DNA of 64,000 nt, taken from Acidobacteriota bacterium (GTDB lineage: Bacteria > Acidobacteriota > Vicinamibacteria > Vicinamibacterales > UBA2999). The notes under the pieces were generated by a model that was given only the letters and a program-made list of their open reading frames with translations, had not been told where the DNA came from and searched no databases. Shown one piece after another: positions 18,270-27,033 of the stretch (its first letter is position 1; the number at the start of each line of letters is the position of its first letter). Made by a program: the position numbers and the translations under genes. The DNA lies in the NCBI GenBank assembly GCA_018000455.1, contig JAGNJW010000001.1, positions 124,001 through 188,000 on the forward strand. The letters are read 5' to 3'.

Positions 18270-19300
18270 GCGACATTCCGCCAGTGCCTTGGTCGGAGCT
18301 GTCGGCCAACGAGAATCCCTCGCCGCCGTCGCCTCGCGTTGCCGCGGCCGTGGTCGAGGCCCTGGCGCACCTCAACCGCTATCCGGAAGGGGAGGACGCG
18401 GCACTGCGCGAGGCGGTGGCCGGGCACCTCGGACGGGGTCTGACACCAGCGCATGTCGTGACCGGCTCGAGCGGCTCCGACGTGCTCGAGCTCATCGCTC
18501 GTGCTCTGCTTGCACCCGGCGACGAGGTCGTCGTGTCGCAGCCCACGTTCCATGTCTATGCCTCGACCGCGCGTCATCAGCAGGCGCGGGTGGTGACAGT
18601 GCCCCTGGACCCCGTGTCGCTCGCCTGCGACGTGGACGGAGTGCTCGGGGTGGTGACGCCGGCGACGCGTCTCGTCTACCTCTGCAATCCAGGCAATCCC
18701 ACGGGCGTCGTCGTGCCGAACGCCGACGTCGAGGCCCTGCTGGCCGGGCTCCCGCCGCGGGTCGTGCTGGTGGCCGACGAAGTCTACGTGCACTACGTGA
18801 CCAGCCCCGCCTTCCCCGACTCGATCGGCCAGGTGCTGGCCGGGCGGCCGGTAGTGATCGTGCACTCCTTCTCGAAGGTCTACGCGCTGGCGGGTCTGCG
18901 CCTGGGCTACGCGGTGACGCGACCCGATCTGGCGGCGACGATCGGCGGCGTTCGCCGCAAGTTTCACCTGGGACGCCTCGACGTCGCGGCCGGCATCGCC
19001 GCCTTGGCCGATCAGGAGTTCGTGCGCGACAGCGTGGCGCTCGTGCACCAGGAACTGCCGAGGTTCTACGACGCCTTCCGGCGGCTCGGCCTGACCTTCT
19101 GGCCCACTGACGCGAACTTCGTGCTGTTCCGGGCGCCGGTGGACGCAAGCGAGCTGGTGCGCGCGCTGGCCGCGCGCGGCGTGAAGGTGCGGACCACCGA
19201 CGGCAACGGCCTGCCGGGCCATGTGCGCGTCACGGTCGGACGGCCCGAAGAGAATCAGCAGTTCGTGGCAGCCCTTTCGGCGGTACTCACATGCGCATGA
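18266..19300 (+). CDS. Fold-type I aminotransferase (HisC/aromatic type), putative tyrosine aminotransferase
   Basis: 344 residues. PLP enzyme with Lys204 in HSFSKVYALAGLRLGY, ANENPSPPSP near the N-terminus (substrate-binding Asn), CNPGNPTG (140-147) and ADEVYVHYV (170-178). The overall pattern is that of histidinol-phosphate aminotransferase, a group that includes aromatic aminotransferases. It lies in a catabolic operon away from other histidine genes, so transamination of tyrosine or phenylalanine to the arylpyruvate is the likely job. The start overlaps the preceding stop by ATGA, and its end overlaps the next gene by 10 bases. Confidence 0.85.
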   Translation: MSDIPPVPWSELSANENPSPPSPRVAAAVVEALAHLNRYPEGEDAALREAVAGHLGRGLTPAHVVTGSSGSDVLELIARALLAPGDEVVVSQPTFHVYASTARHQQARVVTVPLDPVSLACDVDGVLGVVTPATRLVYLCNPGNPTGVVVPNADVEALLAGLPPRVVLVADEVYVHYVTSPAFPDSIGQVLAGRPVVIVHSFSKVYALAGLRLGYAVTRPDLAATIGGVRRKFHLGRLDVAAGIAALADQEFVRDSVALVHQELPRFYDAFRRLGLTFWPTDANFVLFRAPVDASELVRALAARGVKVRTTDGNGLPGHVRVTVGRPEENQQFVAALSAVLTCA

Positions 19301-20922
19301 CCGGCGGCACGGCCGTCGTCAGCGCGCTGCTGGCCGAGGGTGTCGACACGATCTTTGGCCTGCCCGGCATCCAGAACGACTGGTTCTACAACGCCCTCTA
19401 CGATGCCGGCGATCGCATCCGCGTGATTCACACGCGCCACGAGCAGGGCGCCGCCTACATGGCGCTCGGCTACGCGCTGGCCCGCGGCGGCATAGGCGTC
19501 TACAACGTGGTGCCCGGGCCAGGCGTGCTCAACACCACGGCGGCGCTGGCCACCGCCTATGCGCTGAATGCGCAGGTGTTGTGCCTGACCGGACAGATCC
19601 CGCTTGCCGCCATCGGCCGCGACGGGGGTGTGCTGCACGAGATTCCCGACCAGCTTGGCGTGCTCCGCAGCCTCACCAAGTGGGCCGAGCGCGCCACCAG
19701 CGTGGCCGAGGCCGGGCGCCTGACGACTGAGGCCTTCGTCGCGCTGCGCTCGGGCCGGCCCCGTCCTGTTGCGCTCGAAGTGCCGATGGACGTGCTGGCC
19801 GCCGAGGCTGACGTCGACGTCGTCGGCCCTCCGATGCCCGGCGCCAACGAGCCGCTCGACGACGACCTGCTCAGTGAAGCTGTGGCGCTACTGGCGGGCG
19901 CGCGCCGGCCTCTCATCTGGGTGGGCGGGGGAGCGCACGGCGCCAGTGCCGCCATCCGGCAGCTTGCCGACCATCTGCAGGCGCCGGTCGGCTCGTATCG
20001 CACCGGGCGCGGCGTGGTCGACAGCCGCCATCACCTCGCGCTGGTGCAGCCGCAGGCGCATGCCTTGTGGCGCGACGTCGACGTCGTGCTGGCGATCGGC
20101 ACGAACATGCGCGTGCCGTTGCAGAACTGGGGTGTTGACGATCGCCTGCAGGTCATTCGCGTCGACGTCGACCCCGCCACCCACGACCGGGTGACGAGGC
20201 CCGCGGTCGCCCTGACGGCGCGGGCTGAAGACGCCGTGCCGCGCCTGCTCGAGTGGTTGACACGGGAGGTGTCGCCGCGGCCGTCACGTCGAGACGAGAT
20301 GGCGGTGCTGGCGGCACAGTGGCGGGAACAGTCGGCCTTCCTGCAGCCACAGATCGCCTATCTCGATGTGATCCGCGAGGCCCTCGGCGAGCACGGCGTG
20401 TTCGTCGACGAGCTCACCCAAGTGGGCTTCTCGGCGCGCGTCGTGATGCCGGTTTACCATCCACGCACGTTCATCTCCACCGGCTATCAGGGCACCCTCG
20501 GCTACGGGTTCCAGACCGCGCTCGGCGTGAAGGTGGCACGTCCCGACGTGCCGGTCATCTCGGTGACGGGCGATGGGGGATTCATGTTCGGCGTGCAGGA
20601 ACTGGCTACCGCCGTGCAGCACGGCATCAACCTCGTGACCATCGTCTTCAACAACAATCAGTACGGCAACGTGCAGCACATGCAGCGCACGCTCTACGGG
20701 CAGCGCGTCATCGCCACCGACCTCCGCAATCCGAATTTTCCGCAGCTCGCCGCTTCGTTCGGCGCCGCTGGCTACCGGGCCGAGACGCCGGACGCCCTGG
20801 CCGACGCCCTTCACCACGCCTTGGCCGCCGGCCTGCCGGCGCTCATCGAAGTGCCATGCGGCGACATGCCCGACGTCGATCGGTTCCGCAAACTGCCGCG
20901 GCTGCGCGGCGGAAAGGGCTGA
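19291..20922 (+). CDS. ThDP-dependent enzyme, acetolactate-synthase-like; putative arylpyruvate decarboxylase
   Basis: 543 residues (ATG 19291 or 19297). Three-domain ThDP architecture: N-terminal PYR domain with catalytic Glu51 in RHEQGAAYMA, central Rossmann-like domain (about 190-320) and PP domain with GDGGF (about 427) through FNNNQYGN (about 457), the Mg-ThDP motif. It belongs to the acetolactate synthase/pyruvate oxidase/arylpyruvate decarboxylase superfamily. No small regulatory subunit gene is nearby, which argues against valine/isoleucine synthesis. Between an aminotransferase and ring-degradation genes, decarboxylation of 4-hydroxyphenylpyruvate or phenylpyruvate is the best reading, as an Ehrlich-type step. 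Substrate is inferred. Confidence 0.82.
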   Translation: MRMTGGTAVVSALLAEGVDTIFGLPGIQNDWFYNALYDAGDRIRVIHTRHEQGAAYMALGYALARGGIGVYNVVPGPGVLNTTAALATAYALNAQVLCLTGQIPLAAIGRDGGVLHEIPDQLGVLRSLTKWAERATSVAEAGRLTTEAFVALRSGRPRPVALEVPMDVLAAEADVDVVGPPMPGANEPLDDDLLSEAVALLAGARRPLIWVGGGAHGASAAIRQLADHLQAPVGSYRTGRGVVDSRHHLALVQPQAHALWRDVDVVLAIGTNMRVPLQNWGVDDRLQVIRVDVDPATHDRVTRPAVALTARAEDAVPRLLEWLTREVSPRPSRRDEMAVLAAQWREQSAFLQPQIAYLDVIREALGEHGVFVDELTQVGFSARVVMPVYHPRTFISTGYQGTLGYGFQTALGVKVARPDVPVISVTGDGGFMFGVQELATAVQHGINLVTIVFNNNQYGNVQHMQRTLYGQRVIATDLRNPNFPQLAASFGAAGYRAETPDALADALHHALAAGLPALIEVPCGDMPDVDRFRKLPRLRGGKG

Positions 20923-20923
20923 C

Positions 20924-21508
20924 GTGACCCCCAGCCAGGACGCGATCTGGCAGCGTGCCCAGCCGCTGCTCGGCGTGCGGTCGAACGACGTGCACACGCT
21001 CTATTGCTACCGCTTCGCGCGTGCCCTGTGCGCGCTCCATCCGGACGCCGATGCCGAGGTGGTGATTCCCGCCATCCTGCTGCACGACATCGGCTGGAGC
21101 ACGGTGCCACCCGACAAGATCCTGCAGTCGTTCGGCCCGCGCACCGAGTATCCGGAGCTGCGGCGTCAGCACGAGGTCGAAGGCGCGCGGCTGGCGCGCG
21201 AGATCCTGGCGGCGATTGGCCATCCAGTGGCTCAGACCGCAGCCATCGCAAGAATCATCGATGGCCACGACACGCGCGCCGACGCGCTGTCGCTCGAAGA
21301 CGGACTGGTCAAGGACGCCGACAAGCTGTGGCGCTACACGCCGTTCGGCCTCGAGACGGTGCGCGGCTGGTTCGGCCACGGTGTCGACGAGCAGCTCGCG
21401 CTGCTCGACGAGTGGGGCCGCACGCGCTTCTTCGGGGAGGCCGCCCGCCACATGGCCCTCGGCCTGCTGACCGGGCTGCGCGCCGAACGGGAGCTGCGCG
21501 GTGGATAG
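20924..21508 (+). CDS. HD-domain phosphohydrolase-like protein
   Basis: 194 residues from GTG 20924, one base after the preceding stop. Metal-binding HD pattern: His24, His54-Asp55 (ILLHDIGWS), a histidine-aspartate pair in IIDGHDTRAD (115-116) and Asp131/Asp133 in VKDADKLWRY. The DADKLWRYT and LHDIGWS motifs resemble small HD hydrolases that act on nucleotides or phosphorylated small molecules. No signalling domain is attached. It sits inside the catabolic operon and its 3' end overlaps the P-loop gene, so it is co-expressed with the pathway. Actual substrate unknown. Confidence 0.75.
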   Translation: MTPSQDAIWQRAQPLLGVRSNDVHTLYCYRFARALCALHPDADAEVVIPAILLHDIGWSTVPPDKILQSFGPRTEYPELRRQHEVEGARLAREILAAIGHPVAQTAAIARIIDGHDTRADALSLEDGLVKDADKLWRYTPFGLETVRGWFGHGVDEQLALLDEWGRTRFFGEAARHMALGLLTGLRAERELRGG

Positions 21509-22340
21509 GGCGGCCAGCGTGATTCCACGCGACTGGGACGCCGGCGCGGCGCTCGAGCAGTTGGCCGCGCGCCAGAGCGTCGTCATCCTCGCGGGTCTTC
21601 CCGGGGTGGGCAAGAGCCTGCTCCTGCAGCAACTGGCCCGAATGGCGCGGGCAGCGGGCCGGCAGGTGTCTCTGCTCCAGTGGGATGTCGCGCGCCGCGC
21701 CTTCGAGACCGAGGCCATCCTGGCGCGCTATCCCGAAGTCGACGGCTTCACCCACGCCGCCATCAAGCGGGCGGCGGGCCTGTGGGCCAGGGCCGCCGTG
21801 TGGCAGTGGCGACAGGCGCACGATGCGACCCACCTGCTGCTCGGCGAAGCGCCGCTGGTCGGCGGCCGGCTCGCCGAGCTGGCCACCGTGGCAGCTGACG
21901 AGGCCGAGCCGTTTCTGGCCAGCGACGAGGTGCGCTTCGTGCTGCCGGTGCCATCGCGCGAGGTGCGCCGGCTGATCGAGGCGGCACGCCTCAGGTCGAA
22001 CCAGTCGCCGGCCCACGAGCGCGAACGTGGCGATGCGCCCCCCAACGTGCTGCGGGCGCTGTGGGAAGACGTCTACCGCGAGGGCGCGGCGACCGGCCTC
22101 CTGCCGTCGGTGGCGCCTGCGGGCGACATCCCTTACGATCCCGACGCCTACCGAGCCGTCTACACGTCGTGGCTCGGCGCCCGTCACCTGACCGTCCTCG
22201 AGATCGACCGGCAGCTCGAGCCGGCCGGATCGGTCTACGAGATCGGCGCCGTGACAAGCGAGCTGACACCGTCGCCGGCGGAGGTCGAGCGCGTCATGCG
22301 GATCGTCGATGGCCATGAGACGAAAGGCACGCGCGCATGA
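21501..22340 (+). CDS. P-loop NTPase of unknown function in the aromatic operon
   Basis: 279 residues from GTG 21501, overlapping the HD gene by 8 bases. Walker A is GLPGVGKS (32-39) within VVILAGLPGVGKSLLLQQLA; a Walker B-like acidic strand may be HLLLGEAPL (about 111-119). The N-terminal half looks like a nucleotide kinase or AAA-like core. The C-terminal half (150-279) has no motif I recognise. I cannot name a family. Overlaps on both sides (8 bases upstream, 4 bases with the dioxygenase gene) tie it to the pathway, perhaps as a kinase acting with the HD hydrolase or as an activator. Confidence 0.7.
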   Translation: MDRAASVIPRDWDAGAALEQLAARQSVVILAGLPGVGKSLLLQQLARMARAAGRQVSLLQWDVARRAFETEAILARYPEVDGFTHAAIKRAAGLWARAAVWQWRQAHDATHLLLGEAPLVGGRLAELATVAADEAEPFLASDEVRFVLPVPSREVRRLIEAARLRSNQSPAHERERGDAPPNVLRALWEDVYREGAATGLLPSVAPAGDIPYDPDAYRAVYTSWLGARHLTVLEIDRQLEPAGSVYEIGAVTSELTPSPAEVERVMRIVDGHETKGTRA

Positions 22341-23302
22341 AGGCACCTGAGATCGTCCGTCTGGGCCATGTCATCCTGCAGGTCACCGACCTGGCAGCGT
22401 CACGGGCCTTCTACGTCGGCCTGCTCGGTCTCGATGTCGTCGACGAGTCGGCAAAGCACCTGTGCCTGCGGGGCGTCGAGGATCGCGAGTGGACGCTCAT
22501 GCTCGAGGCGAGCAGCGCTCCCGGCGTTCGTCAGATCGGTTTCAAGGTGTCGGCCGAAGAGGATCTCGACGGCCTCGAACAGCTGGCCGGCCGCCTCGGG
22601 CTCACCTCGGCCCGCCGCCAGGAAGTGGAGCGGCCGTCGCTGCTCACGCTCGACGATCCGTTCGGCTCGCCGCTCGCGTTCTACTTCGCGTCGGTGAAGC
22701 GCCCGTGGCTGCTGCAGCAATACGATCGCCGCCGCTGTCCGTCCATTCAGCGCATCGACCACGTCAACCTGTTTGTCGCCAACCCCGGCCAGGCCCTGAC
22801 GTGGTACCGGGACGCGCTCGGGTTCCGCCTGACCGAGTACACCGAAGACGAGGCCGGCAACGTCTGGGCGGCATGGCTCCACCGCAAGGGCAACGTGCAC
22901 GATGTGGCGTTCACCAATGGGGCCGGGCCGCGGCTGCACCACGTGGCGTTCTGGATGCCCGACGCCGCCCAGGTGCTGCAGTTGTGCGACGTGCTCGGCG
23001 CCTCGCGCACCGGAGCCATCGAGCGCGGCCCTGGACGGCACGGCATCTCGAACGCCCTCTATCTCTATCTGCGCGACCCCGACGGGCACCGCGTCGAGAT
23101 CTACACTTCCGACTACCTCACCGTGGATCCCGATTTCGAGCCGACCAGGTGGCGCCTCGACGATCCATATCGCCAGCAGCTGTGGGGCGGCCTGGCACCC
23201 AAGAGCTGGTTCACGGAGGGCAGCCCGTTCACCCGGGCCGACGGCAGTCACCGGCCGCTGACGCCACCGGTCCTCGAGGGGCTGCCGCGCTACATCAGCT
23301 GA
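22337..23302 (+). CDS. hpaD: 3,4-dihydroxyphenylacetate 2,3-dioxygenase, type I extradiol (VOC)
   Basis: 321 residues. Two glyoxalase/bleomycin-resistance (VOC) modules: residues 5-125 and 137-265. Iron ligands of the second module are His142 (IDHVNLFV), His201 or 202 (GPRLHHVAFW) and Glu254 (HRVEIYTSDY); the second-sphere acid-base His188 (NVHDVAF) is also present. The pattern closely follows the homoprotocatechuate dioxygenases of Brevibacterium and Arthrobacter, not the class III LigB-type HpaD of E. coli. It opens the ring of homoprotocatechuate between carbons 2 and 3. It is the last gene of the operon. Confidence 0.92.
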   Translation: MKAPEIVRLGHVILQVTDLAASRAFYVGLLGLDVVDESAKHLCLRGVEDREWTLMLEASSAPGVRQIGFKVSAEEDLDGLEQLAGRLGLTSARRQEVERPSLLTLDDPFGSPLAFYFASVKRPWLLQQYDRRRCPSIQRIDHVNLFVANPGQALTWYRDALGFRLTEYTEDEAGNVWAAWLHRKGNVHDVAFTNGAGPRLHHVAFWMPDAAQVLQLCDVLGASRTGAIERGPGRHGISNALYLYLRDPDGHRVEIYTSDYLTVDPDFEPTRWRLDDPYRQQLWGGLAPKSWFTEGSPFTRADGSHRPLTPPVLEGLPRYIS

Positions 23303-23720: not shown

Positions 23721-23893
23721 CAACCACTGGGCGCCGCCTATCGCGAGGCGATTGGCCGGCGCTTTGTGGCCCGTCTCGGCGATGATGGAAGCCGGCGGCG
23801 ACGTGGAGAACGAAGCCACTGCGGTCGTGCCATGAGTCGCGTCGCCGTCCGACCCGTCAGCGACAGTACCGTTTGCCCCCGAGGACCGTTACC

Positions 23894-24853
23894 ATGCTCA
23901 CCAGACTCGCCGCCCCGGTCGTCGTCGCGATCCTCGGCCTCAGCGTTGTTGGCGTCACGACCAGCCGTGCGCAGAGCGCCATCCTGCCAGATGTGCCTGC
24001 CGGCGCCGTCGCGATCTCCTTCCTCGGGAAGCCGATCACCGCGCCCCCGCCGAGTGCCACCGCCCTCAAGAACCTGGAGGCCGCGCGCGCGACCCATGCC
24101 GCGGCTCCGGCCGATCCGGACAACGTCATCTGGTACGGGCGCCGGCTCGGCTACGCCGGTCAGGACCGCGAGGCGATCCGGGTGTTCACCGAGGGCATCC
24201 GGCTGTTCCCACAGGATCCGCGGCTCTACCGGCACCGCGGGCACCGCTACATTTCGATTCGCGAACTCGACCGGGCCATCGCCGACCTCACCAAGGCCGG
24301 CGACCTGGTTGAAGGCAAACCGAACGAGGTGGAGCCCGACGGCGCCCCCAACCAGTTCGGCATCCCGGTCAGCACGCTGCACCACAACATCTGGTACCAC
24401 CTGGGCTTGGCCTACTACCTCAAGCACGACTGGGAAAACGCGCTGGCCGCCTACGACAAAGCGTTCGGCGTCGCGCGCAACGGCGACAACCTGGCGTCGA
24501 TTACGCACTGGCGCTATTCGATCCGGCGACGGATGGGTCAGACCCATGACCAGGCGAAGGCCGTGCTCGACGCCATCACGCCCGACACCGCGGTACTGGA
24601 AAATCACAACTACCTGAAGCTCGACCGCTTCTACAAAGGGGACGTGACCGTGGCCGACATGCTCGAGACCGCGATGGGCAGCGCCGACGTCGCGGCCGAC
24701 GCGTCGCTGATTCAGGGCGTGGCCAACTGGTATCTCTACAGCGGCCAGGCCAGCAAGGGGTACGCGCTCATGGAGCATCTGGTCGCCCAGACCAAGTTAT
24801 GGGGCGCGTTCGGCTATCTCGCCTCCGAGGCAGACCTGGCGGCCAGGAAGTAG
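23894..24853 (+). CDS. Secreted TPR-repeat protein
   Basis: 319 residues from ATG 23894 with a signal peptide (1-26, ending TTSRA-QS). TPR-like helical repeats run from about residue 60 to 290 (for example NVIWYGRRLGYAGQDREAIR and LGLAYYLKHDWENALAAYDKA). No enzymatic motif. Such proteins usually act as periplasmic scaffolds. Similar secreted TPR proteins are frequent in Acidobacteriota, but I cannot give a partner. Followed after 105 bases by the metallopeptidase gene. Confidence 0.8.
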   Translation: MLTRLAAPVVVAILGLSVVGVTTSRAQSAILPDVPAGAVAISFLGKPITAPPPSATALKNLEAARATHAAAPADPDNVIWYGRRLGYAGQDREAIRVFTEGIRLFPQDPRLYRHRGHRYISIRELDRAIADLTKAGDLVEGKPNEVEPDGAPNQFGIPVSTLHHNIWYHLGLAYYLKHDWENALAAYDKAFGVARNGDNLASITHWRYSIRRRMGQTHDQAKAVLDAITPDTAVLENHNYLKLDRFYKGDVTVADMLETAMGSADVAADASLIQGVANWYLYSGQASKGYALMEHLVAQTKLWGAFGYLASEADLAARK

Positions 24854-24958
24854 CGGCTGCCCTGAGCGGTGGCGACCCTCAGAGCGGGCTGGCGCAGTAA
24901 AGGCCGCCAGCGGCGACAGCCCGGCTGCTACACTGCTGGAGCGCCGCAAGGCGCGTCC

Positions 24959-26023
24959 ATGGCCGACGTCACCACCAAGGCGAAGAAGCGCCGCACCGAA
25001 TCGCCGCGCCCGCGGCTGTCGTGGACCCGCTACAGCGACGAGCGGCTCCTCGACCTCCGGATCTCCGACCTTGGGGTCCGCGTCGAGGGCACGTGGCTCG
25101 AGGAGTGCCTCCACGAACTCCACGAAGATCTCGAGCAGCGCGGCGTGCGGCTGCGCCCGCACGCCTGGCTCTCGCACGACTGGTTCAGTCCCGACAACGT
25201 GCCGGGCATCGCGATCCCGTTCTACCTCGCACACCCGCGGCTCACCCGGCTCGAGCGCAGCCAGATGCTCGAGGTCGAGGGCGGCTCGCGGGAGGACTGC
25301 ATCCGCATCCTCCGCCACGAGTGCGGCCACGCCGTGCATCATGCCTGGCAGCTCCACCGCCGGCGACGGTGGCAGCAGGTGTTCGGCAATGCCTCTCGCC
25401 GCTACCCGGATGTCTACCGGCCCAACCCCGCCAGCCGCCGCTTCGTCCAGCACTTGCGGCTCTACTACGCGCAGAGCCACCCGGCGGAAGACTTCGCTGA
25501 AACCTTTGCCGTCTGGATGCAGCCACGGGCGATCTGGCGAAAGCGCTATGACGGCTGGCCCGCGCTGCAGAAGCTCGAGTACGTGGACGAGCTGATGGGT
25601 GAGCTCGAGCCGGTGGCTCCGGTCGTGCGCACGCGGGCACGTGTGGAGCCGTCGCACAAGATCCACACGACGCTGCGCGAGTACTACGCGCAGAAGCGGG
25701 AACAGTACTCGGCCGGGCAGCCCGACATCTACGACCGTGAGCTCAAGCGCCTGTTCTCGGACGACCCCACCCACCGGCACCGCGAGCTGGCCTCGACCTT
25801 CCTGCGCCGCAACCGCACCGAGATCCGCCGGCTGGTGTCGCGGTGGACCGGTGAGTATCAGTTCACCTTGGACCAGGTGCTCGAGGACATGATCGGGCGC
25901 TGCCGCGAGCTGCGGCTGCGCGCCGCGGCTCCCGACCGCGTGCTGCGGCTCGATTTCGCGATGCTGCTGGCGGTCAAGACCGTGCACTACCTGTACAGCC
26001 GGCGAAACTGGATAGCCTTGTGA
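24959..26023 (+). CDS. Putative zinc metallopeptidase (zinc-binding peptidase family)
   Basis: 354 residues from ATG 24959; the start is chosen because the MADVTTKAKKRR opening follows a non-coding-looking stretch. HExxH zinc site at 120-124 (RHECGHAVHHAW); the third ligand is probably a glutamate in HPAEDFAETFA (175-183). No signal peptide, so cytoplasmic. The arrangement matches the putative zinc-binding metallopeptidase family (PF15887-like). The stop codon overlaps the GTG of the ATP-grasp gene (GTGA), implying translational coupling. A linked protease and ligase suggests a small peptide-conjugation system, though the substrate is unknown. Confidence 0.78.
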   Translation: MADVTTKAKKRRTESPRPRLSWTRYSDERLLDLRISDLGVRVEGTWLEECLHELHEDLEQRGVRLRPHAWLSHDWFSPDNVPGIAIPFYLAHPRLTRLERSQMLEVEGGSREDCIRILRHECGHAVHHAWQLHRRRRWQQVFGNASRRYPDVYRPNPASRRFVQHLRLYYAQSHPAEDFAETFAVWMQPRAIWRKRYDGWPALQKLEYVDELMGELEPVAPVVRTRARVEPSHKIHTTLREYYAQKREQYSAGQPDIYDRELKRLFSDDPTHRHRELASTFLRRNRTEIRRLVSRWTGEYQFTLDQVLEDMIGRCRELRLRAAAPDRVLRLDFAMLLAVKTVHYLYSRRNWIAL

Positions 26024-27033
26024 AGAAGCTCCGCGTGCTCGTGCTGATGCACCCCAGCCTGGTGCCGCCGGAGAGCCGCGAAGGCTACTCCGAGAAGGAG
26101 AGCTTCGCCTGGAAGACCGAGTACGACGTGGTGACGACGCTCAGGAAGGCCGGCCACGAGGTGCGCCCGCTCGGCGTCCAGGAGGAGCTGGCCCCGATTC
26201 GCCGCGAAGTGGAGAACTGGAAGCCGCACGTCGTCTACAACCTGCTCGAGGAGTTCCACCACCAGCAGGAGTTCGATCAGCACGTGGTCAGCTACCTCGA
26301 GCTGCTGCACGCCAAGTACACCGGCTGCAATCCCCGCGGCCTGGTCTTGTCACGTGACAAAGCCCTGGCCAAGAAGCTCGTGCACTACCACCGCATCCGG
26401 ATGCCCGGGTTCGTGATCTTCCGCAAGGGCCGCAAGCCGCGCCTGCCGGCGACCCTCTCCTACCCGGTGATCGTCAAGTGTCTGACCAAGGAGGGCTCGC
26501 TCGGCATCTCGCAGTCGTCGATCGTCGACAACGACGAGAAGCTGGCGGAGCGCGTGCGCTTCGTGCACGAACGGCTCGAAGACGACGCCCTGGTCGAAGA
26601 ATTCATCGAGGGCCGGGAGCTCTACGTGGGCGTGATCGGCAACCGCCGCGTGCAAGTGCTGCCGATCTGGGAGCTGGTGTTCGAGAACCTCGGACGCGGC
26701 AGCGTGCCGATCGCCACCGAGCAGGCCAAGCACAATCCCGACTATCAGGAGCGCGCCGGTATCAACCAGCAGCCCGCCGAGGGACTGTCTGACGCGCTGG
26801 TCGAACACGTCATCCGCACGACCAAGAAGATTTACCGGATTCTCGAGCTCGACGGCTACGCCCGGATCGACTACCGCCTGCGCTCCGACGGCACGCTCTT
26901 CTTTCTCGAGGCGAATCCGAATCCGGAGATCGCCGAGAGCGCGGAGTTCGCCTCCGCGGCGCAGCACGCCGGCTTGTCGTATCCCGACCTCCTCGGCCGG
27001 ATTCTCTCGCTCGGCATGGCGCGCGGACGGTGA
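26020..27033 (+). CDS. ATP-grasp ligase (D-Ala-D-Ala ligase-like)
   Basis: 337 residues from GTG 26020. ATP-grasp fold: ATP-binding lysines in YPVIVKCLTKEGSLGIS (about 149-165), VEEFIEGRELYVGVIG (about 192-207), and the metal/catalytic block GYARIDYRLR...FFLEANPNPEI near 286-310. N-terminal domain begins LRVLVLMHPSLVPPES. It resembles D-alanine-D-alanine ligase but is not the housekeeping Ddl; such paralogues often make peptide bonds on small molecules or peptides. Coupled to the upstream metallopeptidase by overlap. Ends 12 bases from the convergent transporter. Confidence 0.85.
   Translation: MKKLRVLVLMHPSLVPPESREGYSEKESFAWKTEYDVVTTLRKAGHEVRPLGVQEELAPIRREVENWKPHVVYNLLEEFHHQQEFDQHVVSYLELLHAKYTGCNPRGLVLSRDKALAKKLVHYHRIRMPGFVIFRKGRKPRLPATLSYPVIVKCLTKEGSLGISQSSIVDNDEKLAERVRFVHERLEDDALVEEFIEGRELYVGVIGNRRVQVLPIWELVFENLGRGSVPIATEQAKHNPDYQERAGINQQPAEGLSDALVEHVIRTTKKIYRILELDGYARIDYRLRSDGTLFFLEANPNPEIAESAEFASAAQHAGLSYPDLLGRILSLGMARGR

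Follow-up and report, generated by a model that had tools for sequence, protein, structure and literature searches.

The window, which is the whole 64,000-nucleotide stretch of DNA analysed here, contains two overlapping plus-strand open reading frames at 24959-27033, with a peptidase gene in first position and a ligase gene in second position. The peptidase gene (24959..26023, plus strand) encodes a 354-residue zinc metallopeptidase, which is assigned as a relative of the Peptidase_Mx family (PF15887) from Pfam, 49 related loci and an AlphaFold model. Its reading frame starts with ATG at 24959 and closes with a TGA stop with its end at 26023. An alternative, longer reading would start with GTG at 24869; homology starts only at approximately residue 17-22. 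The ligase gene (26020..27033, plus strand) starts with GTG at 26020, has a stop codon ending at 27033 and encodes a 337-residue ATP-grasp amide ligase, which is assigned the Ddl fold and separated from Ddl itself on the basis of Pfam, VIA-align and its D-Ala pocket. The TGA stop of the peptidase gene and the GTG start of the ligase gene share 4 bp in the sequence (26020..26023, plus strand), and an identical overlap is present in many relatives. The initial annotation of a zinc metallopeptidase and an ATP-grasp ligase with overlapping start and stop is confirmed by both reading frames, the Pfam matches and the overlap, and the two-gene unit that it proposed is real and conserved. Opposing action of the two enzymes on one bond, and a role in conjugation or peptide tailoring, as also suggested there, are hypothetical.

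Upstream of the pair, a gene for a TPR-repeat protein (23873-24853) is located 105 nt before the peptidase gene, and a relative that clusters with its product was found in locus L029, labelled Planctomycetota. Further upstream, a run of overlapping or almost abutting plus-strand genes (19291-23302) includes HD-domain and P-loop proteins, as well as a strong match to 3,4-dihydroxyphenylacetate 2,3-dioxygenase (377.5 bits, cut-off 321.4). From its sequence, the first ORF of this run (19291-20922) resembles a thiamine-pyrophosphate enzyme.

PF15887 was the only family above threshold in the Pfam scan of the window peptidase, accompanied by one sub-threshold capsid row. The match scores 34.2 bits against a gathering cut-off of 27 and is partial, covering profile positions 90-165 of 236. 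Alignment of relatives locates the HExxH zinc site at HECGH, residues 120-124 (25316..25330, plus strand). His120, Glu121 and His124 are invariant among 38 aligned relatives, and the HExxH motif is retained in all 98 of the wider relatives. A second motif, HPxEDFAE (residues 174-181; 25478..25501, plus strand), is present in 96 of these 98 proteins, and its His174, Glu177, Asp178 and Glu181 residues are invariant in the 38 aligned relatives. Judging from the alignment, this second motif probably carries the third zinc ligand. An N-terminal zinc ribbon is a common PF15887 architecture that is not demanded by the family model; the Pfam scan detected none in the window peptidase, and a ribbon is present in the proteins of L171 and L145.

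The AlphaFold model of the peptidase has a mean pLDDT of 86.5 and a pTM of 0.77. Anthrax lethal factor and the PPEP peptidases, which are gluzincins, form the top rows of the VIA-align comparison with Z below 8. Foldseek returned nothing at E 0.001 or better, and its top row was a putative zinc-binding metallopeptidase (E 0.048). As far as the predicted model can indicate, these weak matches reflect the shared gluzincin core and no more. The fold comparison is barely informative beyond approximately residue 220, where a C-terminal fold is neither found nor excluded.

The ligase matches the Pfam family Dala_Dala_lig_C at 95.1 bits (cut-off 24). Its model has a mean pLDDT of 90.6, and the best structural matches are Ddl structures, with a Foldseek E of 2.5e-26 and a VIA-align Z of 33.6 to DdlB (rmsd 2.2 over 294 residues). 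In an alignment with the genome's own canonical Ddl as the reference row, the seven Ddl catalytic positions (K144, E187, K215, R255, D257, E270 and N272) are kept in all 34 ligases. The ATP-site lysine, K153 in the window ligase (26476..26478, plus strand), is invariant in this set. The stretch from R282 to N299 (26863..26916, plus strand) is the putative catalytic segment by analogy to Ddl and would provide an oxyanion arginine and magnesium ligands; R282, D284, E297 and N299, which correspond to Ddl R255, D257, E270 and N272, are likewise invariant (n=34).

The positions equivalent to Glu15, Ser150 and Tyr216 of Ddl (E. coli numbering), which we take to be the D-Ala-binding residues, behave differently. 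The Glu15 equivalent is Pro in all 34 ligases and is the least certain of these positions because the surrounding region aligns poorly. The Ser150 equivalent is Ala in 25, Ser in 7 and Gly in 2, and the Tyr216 equivalent is His in 20, Trp in 12, and Met and Arg in one each. In the core ligases, the acceptor-site motif is followed by two acidic residues, the first being Glu in 33 of 34 and the next Glu or Asp in 34 of 34. Since the residues for ATP and the acyl phosphate are kept and the D-Ala positions are changed, the protein is predicted to be active as an ATP-grasp amide ligase but not to make D-Ala-D-Ala. The changed donor-side positions would fit a larger donor.

Profile scores separate the ligase from Ddl. 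Its best curated NCBIfam score is 120.2 bits, below the cut-off of 243. The genome encodes a canonical Ddl elsewhere (C26), which scores 348.7 bits against a cut-off of 245.65, and both genomic copies of the pair's ligase fall far below this cut-off, at 103.7 and 110.2. The window ligase therefore has the fold and the ATP/acyl-phosphate residues of Ddl, and differs from Ddl in its altered D-Ala-binding positions and sub-cut-off scores, with the housekeeping enzyme at another site. The initial annotation had named a standard Ddl paralogue as the finding that would undo its proposal, and this is not what the ligase appears to be. The pair warns against naming this ligase group D-Ala-D-Ala ligase from the fold alone.

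A scan of species genomes identified 49 loci with a peptidase relative at 43-65% identity. In 48 of them, a ligase relative immediately follows the peptidase, a count that includes L017 (internal ligase part missing), L028 (split ligase), L048 (cut by a contig end) and L050 (N-run between the genes). At the remaining locus, L016, the best ligase relative of the genome is on another contig. L050 was considered as a natural two-gene fusion of 731 residues and dropped as a scaffolding artefact, because the join consists of an N-run read as X. The window genome itself contains a second adjacent pair at C17, with 50-51% identity for both proteins. Peptidase and ligase tree distances correlate with r 0.92 across 46 loci, a value that shared ancestry alone could yield; L016, L017, L028, L048 and L050 were left out as incomplete or interrupted.

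Across 247 genomes of the own phylum, the peptidase (E 1e-3 or better) was detected in 59, the ligase (E 1e-40 or better) in 52 and both in 49. Of 66 peptidase matches, 39 have a same-strand ligase just downstream, within 334 nt, one is convergent, three have a ligase 4-18 kb off and 23 are without a strong ligase on their contig. Fourteen of these 23 regions were inspected. Five adjoin a more diverged ATP-grasp gene, which is convergent in L088, L089, L090 and L092 and tandem in L102, and nine have no adjoining ATP-grasp gene. Genome G192, tallied as ligase-only, has the last part of a peptidase-like gene next to its ligase at a contig end. In 200 Gemmatimonadota genomes, the peptidase was found in 75, the ligase in 76 and both in 73. 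A ligase lies within 1.5 kb of 77 of the 81 peptidase matches there, arranged as peptidase then ligase (43), ligase then peptidase (28) or convergently (6), and 11 of 88 ligase matches are without an adjacent peptidase match. Locus L038 is from Peristeroidobacter, which places its class as Gammaproteobacteria. In 229 genomes of this class, all 10 ligases are located just downstream of a peptidase; 11 strong peptidases were detected, and the one without a ligase match ends approximately 275 nt from a contig end.

Fisher tests of co-occurrence gave p 7e-38 for the own phylum and 3e-48 for Gemmatimonadota, values that ignore shared ancestry. The existence of three distinct arrangements argues that selection keeps both genes together. 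The pair is a conserved two-gene unit in several phyla, recurring in records labelled Acidobacteria, Gemmatimonadetes, Planctomycetota, Myxococcota and Gammaproteobacteria, and its carriers include named strains of Peristeroidobacter and Steroidobacter. The neighbourhood survey suggested with the original proposal, which would have counted against it had the genes commonly been found apart, instead finds them rarely apart, both in the 49 loci and in the own phylum, Gemmatimonadota and Gammaproteobacteria. Plasmids gave no peptidase match and 501 records with ligase-like matches, every one below 60% identity. Viral contigs contain five peptidase relatives (L175-L179), of which only L175 has a ligase relative within the stretch examined; L176-L178 (IMG/VR; 28-37% identity) have none in that stretch.

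A third partner common to all loci was sought and none was found; neighbours are common within lineages only. Nine Steroidobacter-type loci have a phosphatase/ADP-ribosylglycohydrolase gene upstream. A same-strand gene precedes the peptidase gene in L038-L043, L045, L046, L054 and L162, and the L045 copy contains dual-specificity phosphatase and ADP-ribosylglycohydrolase domains. A transketolase-like gene, so named from reading its sequence, is near the pair in 17 loci. The Gemmatimonadota loci L142-L147 form an operon with lysine-decarboxylase-like, deoxyhypusine synthase-like and transporter-like genes and, in most, a class V aminotransferase, followed by the ligase and a zinc-ribbon peptidase. 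L115, L116 and L118 carry two overlapping ligase relatives in tandem and, behind them, a gene of the GNAT family; in these genomes the peptidase relative has a separate location. On a Thioflavicoccus plasmid (L181, 1557-5903), a ligase relative (31% identity) belongs to a gene run that also contains diaminobutyrate transaminase, SbnA and ornithine cyclodeaminase genes, a diaminobutyrate/diaminopropionate operon. In L100 (1908-4605) and L099 (11436-14101), the ligase gene lies behind phosphopantetheinyl transferase and metallophosphoesterase genes, away from the peptidase.

Standard members of the peptidase family occur in other settings. The two weak peptidase matches in Gammaproteobacteria belong to the standard Peptidase_Mx type (285.3 and 278.4 bits). 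One of them, in L172 (3921-10818), is located among circularly permuted ATP-grasp, alpha-E, transglutaminase and DUF2126 genes, and the other, a zinc-ribbon protein in L171 (6263-10590), adjoins a transglutaminase-DUF2126 gene. No obvious precursor peptide had been noticed near the pair. In line with this, 263 short ORFs from the flanks, all lying outside called genes, include no family common to at least three loci; the screen is weak, and short, fast-evolving peptides could escape it.

The pairing of an ATP-grasp ligase with a peptidase is already known. In the RimK/RimB and RloC/RloA operons of Pseudomonas, as in the window, a functionally linked ligase and peptidase share one operon (PMC11957791, PMC12239564), and RimB is described as stripping residues added by RimK and stimulating RimK (PMC11957791). 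The components differ. RimB and RloA belong to the retropepsin-like aspartic peptidases, whereas the window peptidase is of the HExxH zinc type and related to PF15887; RimK is a glutamate ligase, whereas the window ligase has the Ddl fold. The Anbu-type operons with circularly permuted ATP-grasp, alpha-E and transglutaminase genes, for which protein tagging has been proposed (PMC6376114), likewise pair a peptidase family with an ATP-grasp protein, and standard PF15887 peptidases adjoin genes of these kinds in L171 and L172. Their ATP-grasp protein is circularly permuted, in contrast to the Ddl-type window ligase, and none of the eight window proteins scanned is a circularly permuted ATP-grasp, an alpha-E or a transglutaminase protein. 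No prior description of the pair was recognised among the open-access papers searched, and an earlier mention elsewhere is possible. This variant, with a Ddl-fold ligase and a zinc peptidase, seems to be new.

Our preferred interpretation, to which we assign a probability of approximately 0.45, is a two-protein ligase-peptidase system that acts on one peptide-like substrate or pathway, similar to RimK/RimB and built from other parts. The zinc peptidase would act at a particular peptide-like end, where it cuts, exposes or removes residues. The ligase would use ATP to activate a carboxylate as an acyl phosphate and then attach an amine, acting on the same substrate or in the same pathway as the peptidase. 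The two proteins would be made together through translation that is probably coupled, and we infer that they share a substrate and an intracellular location. A shared peptide-like substrate appears likely because the genes are side by side across several phyla. Linkage in the own phylum, Gemmatimonadota and Gammaproteobacteria, the second pair in the same genome and the intact catalytic residues all count for such a pair. The breaks in linkage in some lineages, the few ligases that stand alone, the ligase relatives in small-molecule settings and the partial coverage of the PF15887 profile count against it. By analogy, we slightly favour the end of a peptide or protein as the substrate, given that the standard PF15887 peptidases occupy ATP-grasp/alpha-E/transglutaminase clusters, relatives of which are proposed protein taggers. 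Few bacterial ligase-peptidase pairs have a known substrate, and the two-gene pair is compact enough to serve as a testable system in which to look for a protein or peptide modification.

A serious rival to the peptide-end reading, possible with the odds against it, is a small-metabolite cycle: the ligase would join free small molecules into a dipeptide or an amino-acid or polyamine conjugate, which the peptidase would then trim or recycle. The tandem ligase relatives with a GNAT enzyme, the L142-L147 operon with its aminotransferase, deoxyhypusine synthase-like and transporter-like genes, and the diaminobutyrate/diaminopropionate operon are consistent with such a cycle, and the two acidic residues after the acceptor-site motif could suit a basic amine. 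These settings, however, concern relatives at 30-43% identity, and the window and most core loci share no further biosynthetic gene or exporter, leaving a unit of two genes. Comparable systems exist: VanA, a Ddl-fold ligase, is partnered with the zinc peptidase VanX, and tabtoxin is produced as a dipeptide that is then cleaved. In contrast to VanA/VanX, the window pair has a peptidase with a PF15887 match and no VanX-type match, and a ligase that has lost the D-Ala positions.

Modification of a ribosomal peptide appears improbable. In this reading, which follows a proposal for graspetide branches 7 and 8, a peptide with its gene at another site is released or trimmed by the peptidase, then crosslinked or extended by the ligase. 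It has a precedent in these branches, which combine ATP-grasp proteins and peptidases with no precursor found (PMC8939145), but the window ligase is Ddl-like, there is no common exporter and the flanks share no short ORF in the weak screen. The main text of that source makes no mention of COG1181, Acidobacteria or Gemmatimonadetes. Chance adjacency, or a cell-wall Ddl paralogue beside an unrelated peptidase, would agree with the Ddl fold and with Ddl structures being the best PDB matches. This explanation is nevertheless very improbable: it is contradicted by the counts, with linkage conserved through several phyla and arrangements, and by the canonical Ddl elsewhere (348.7 bits) together with the replaced D-Ala-binding positions.

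A more specific proposal, drawn by analogy and rated as unlikely, is a tag-and-trim cycle independent of RimK/RimB, in which the Ddl-fold ligase, freed from D-Ala, would extend the end of a specific protein or peptide exposed by the dedicated peptidase and the peptidase could reverse the tag. If true, such a cycle would resemble that of eukaryotic tubulin, in which the terminal tyrosine is cycled on and off. The extreme C-terminus of the peptidase, which might itself be a substrate or docking end, is Leu, Val or Met in nearly all core members. The tail as a universal ligase substrate was ruled out, because the convergent class has a different ending.
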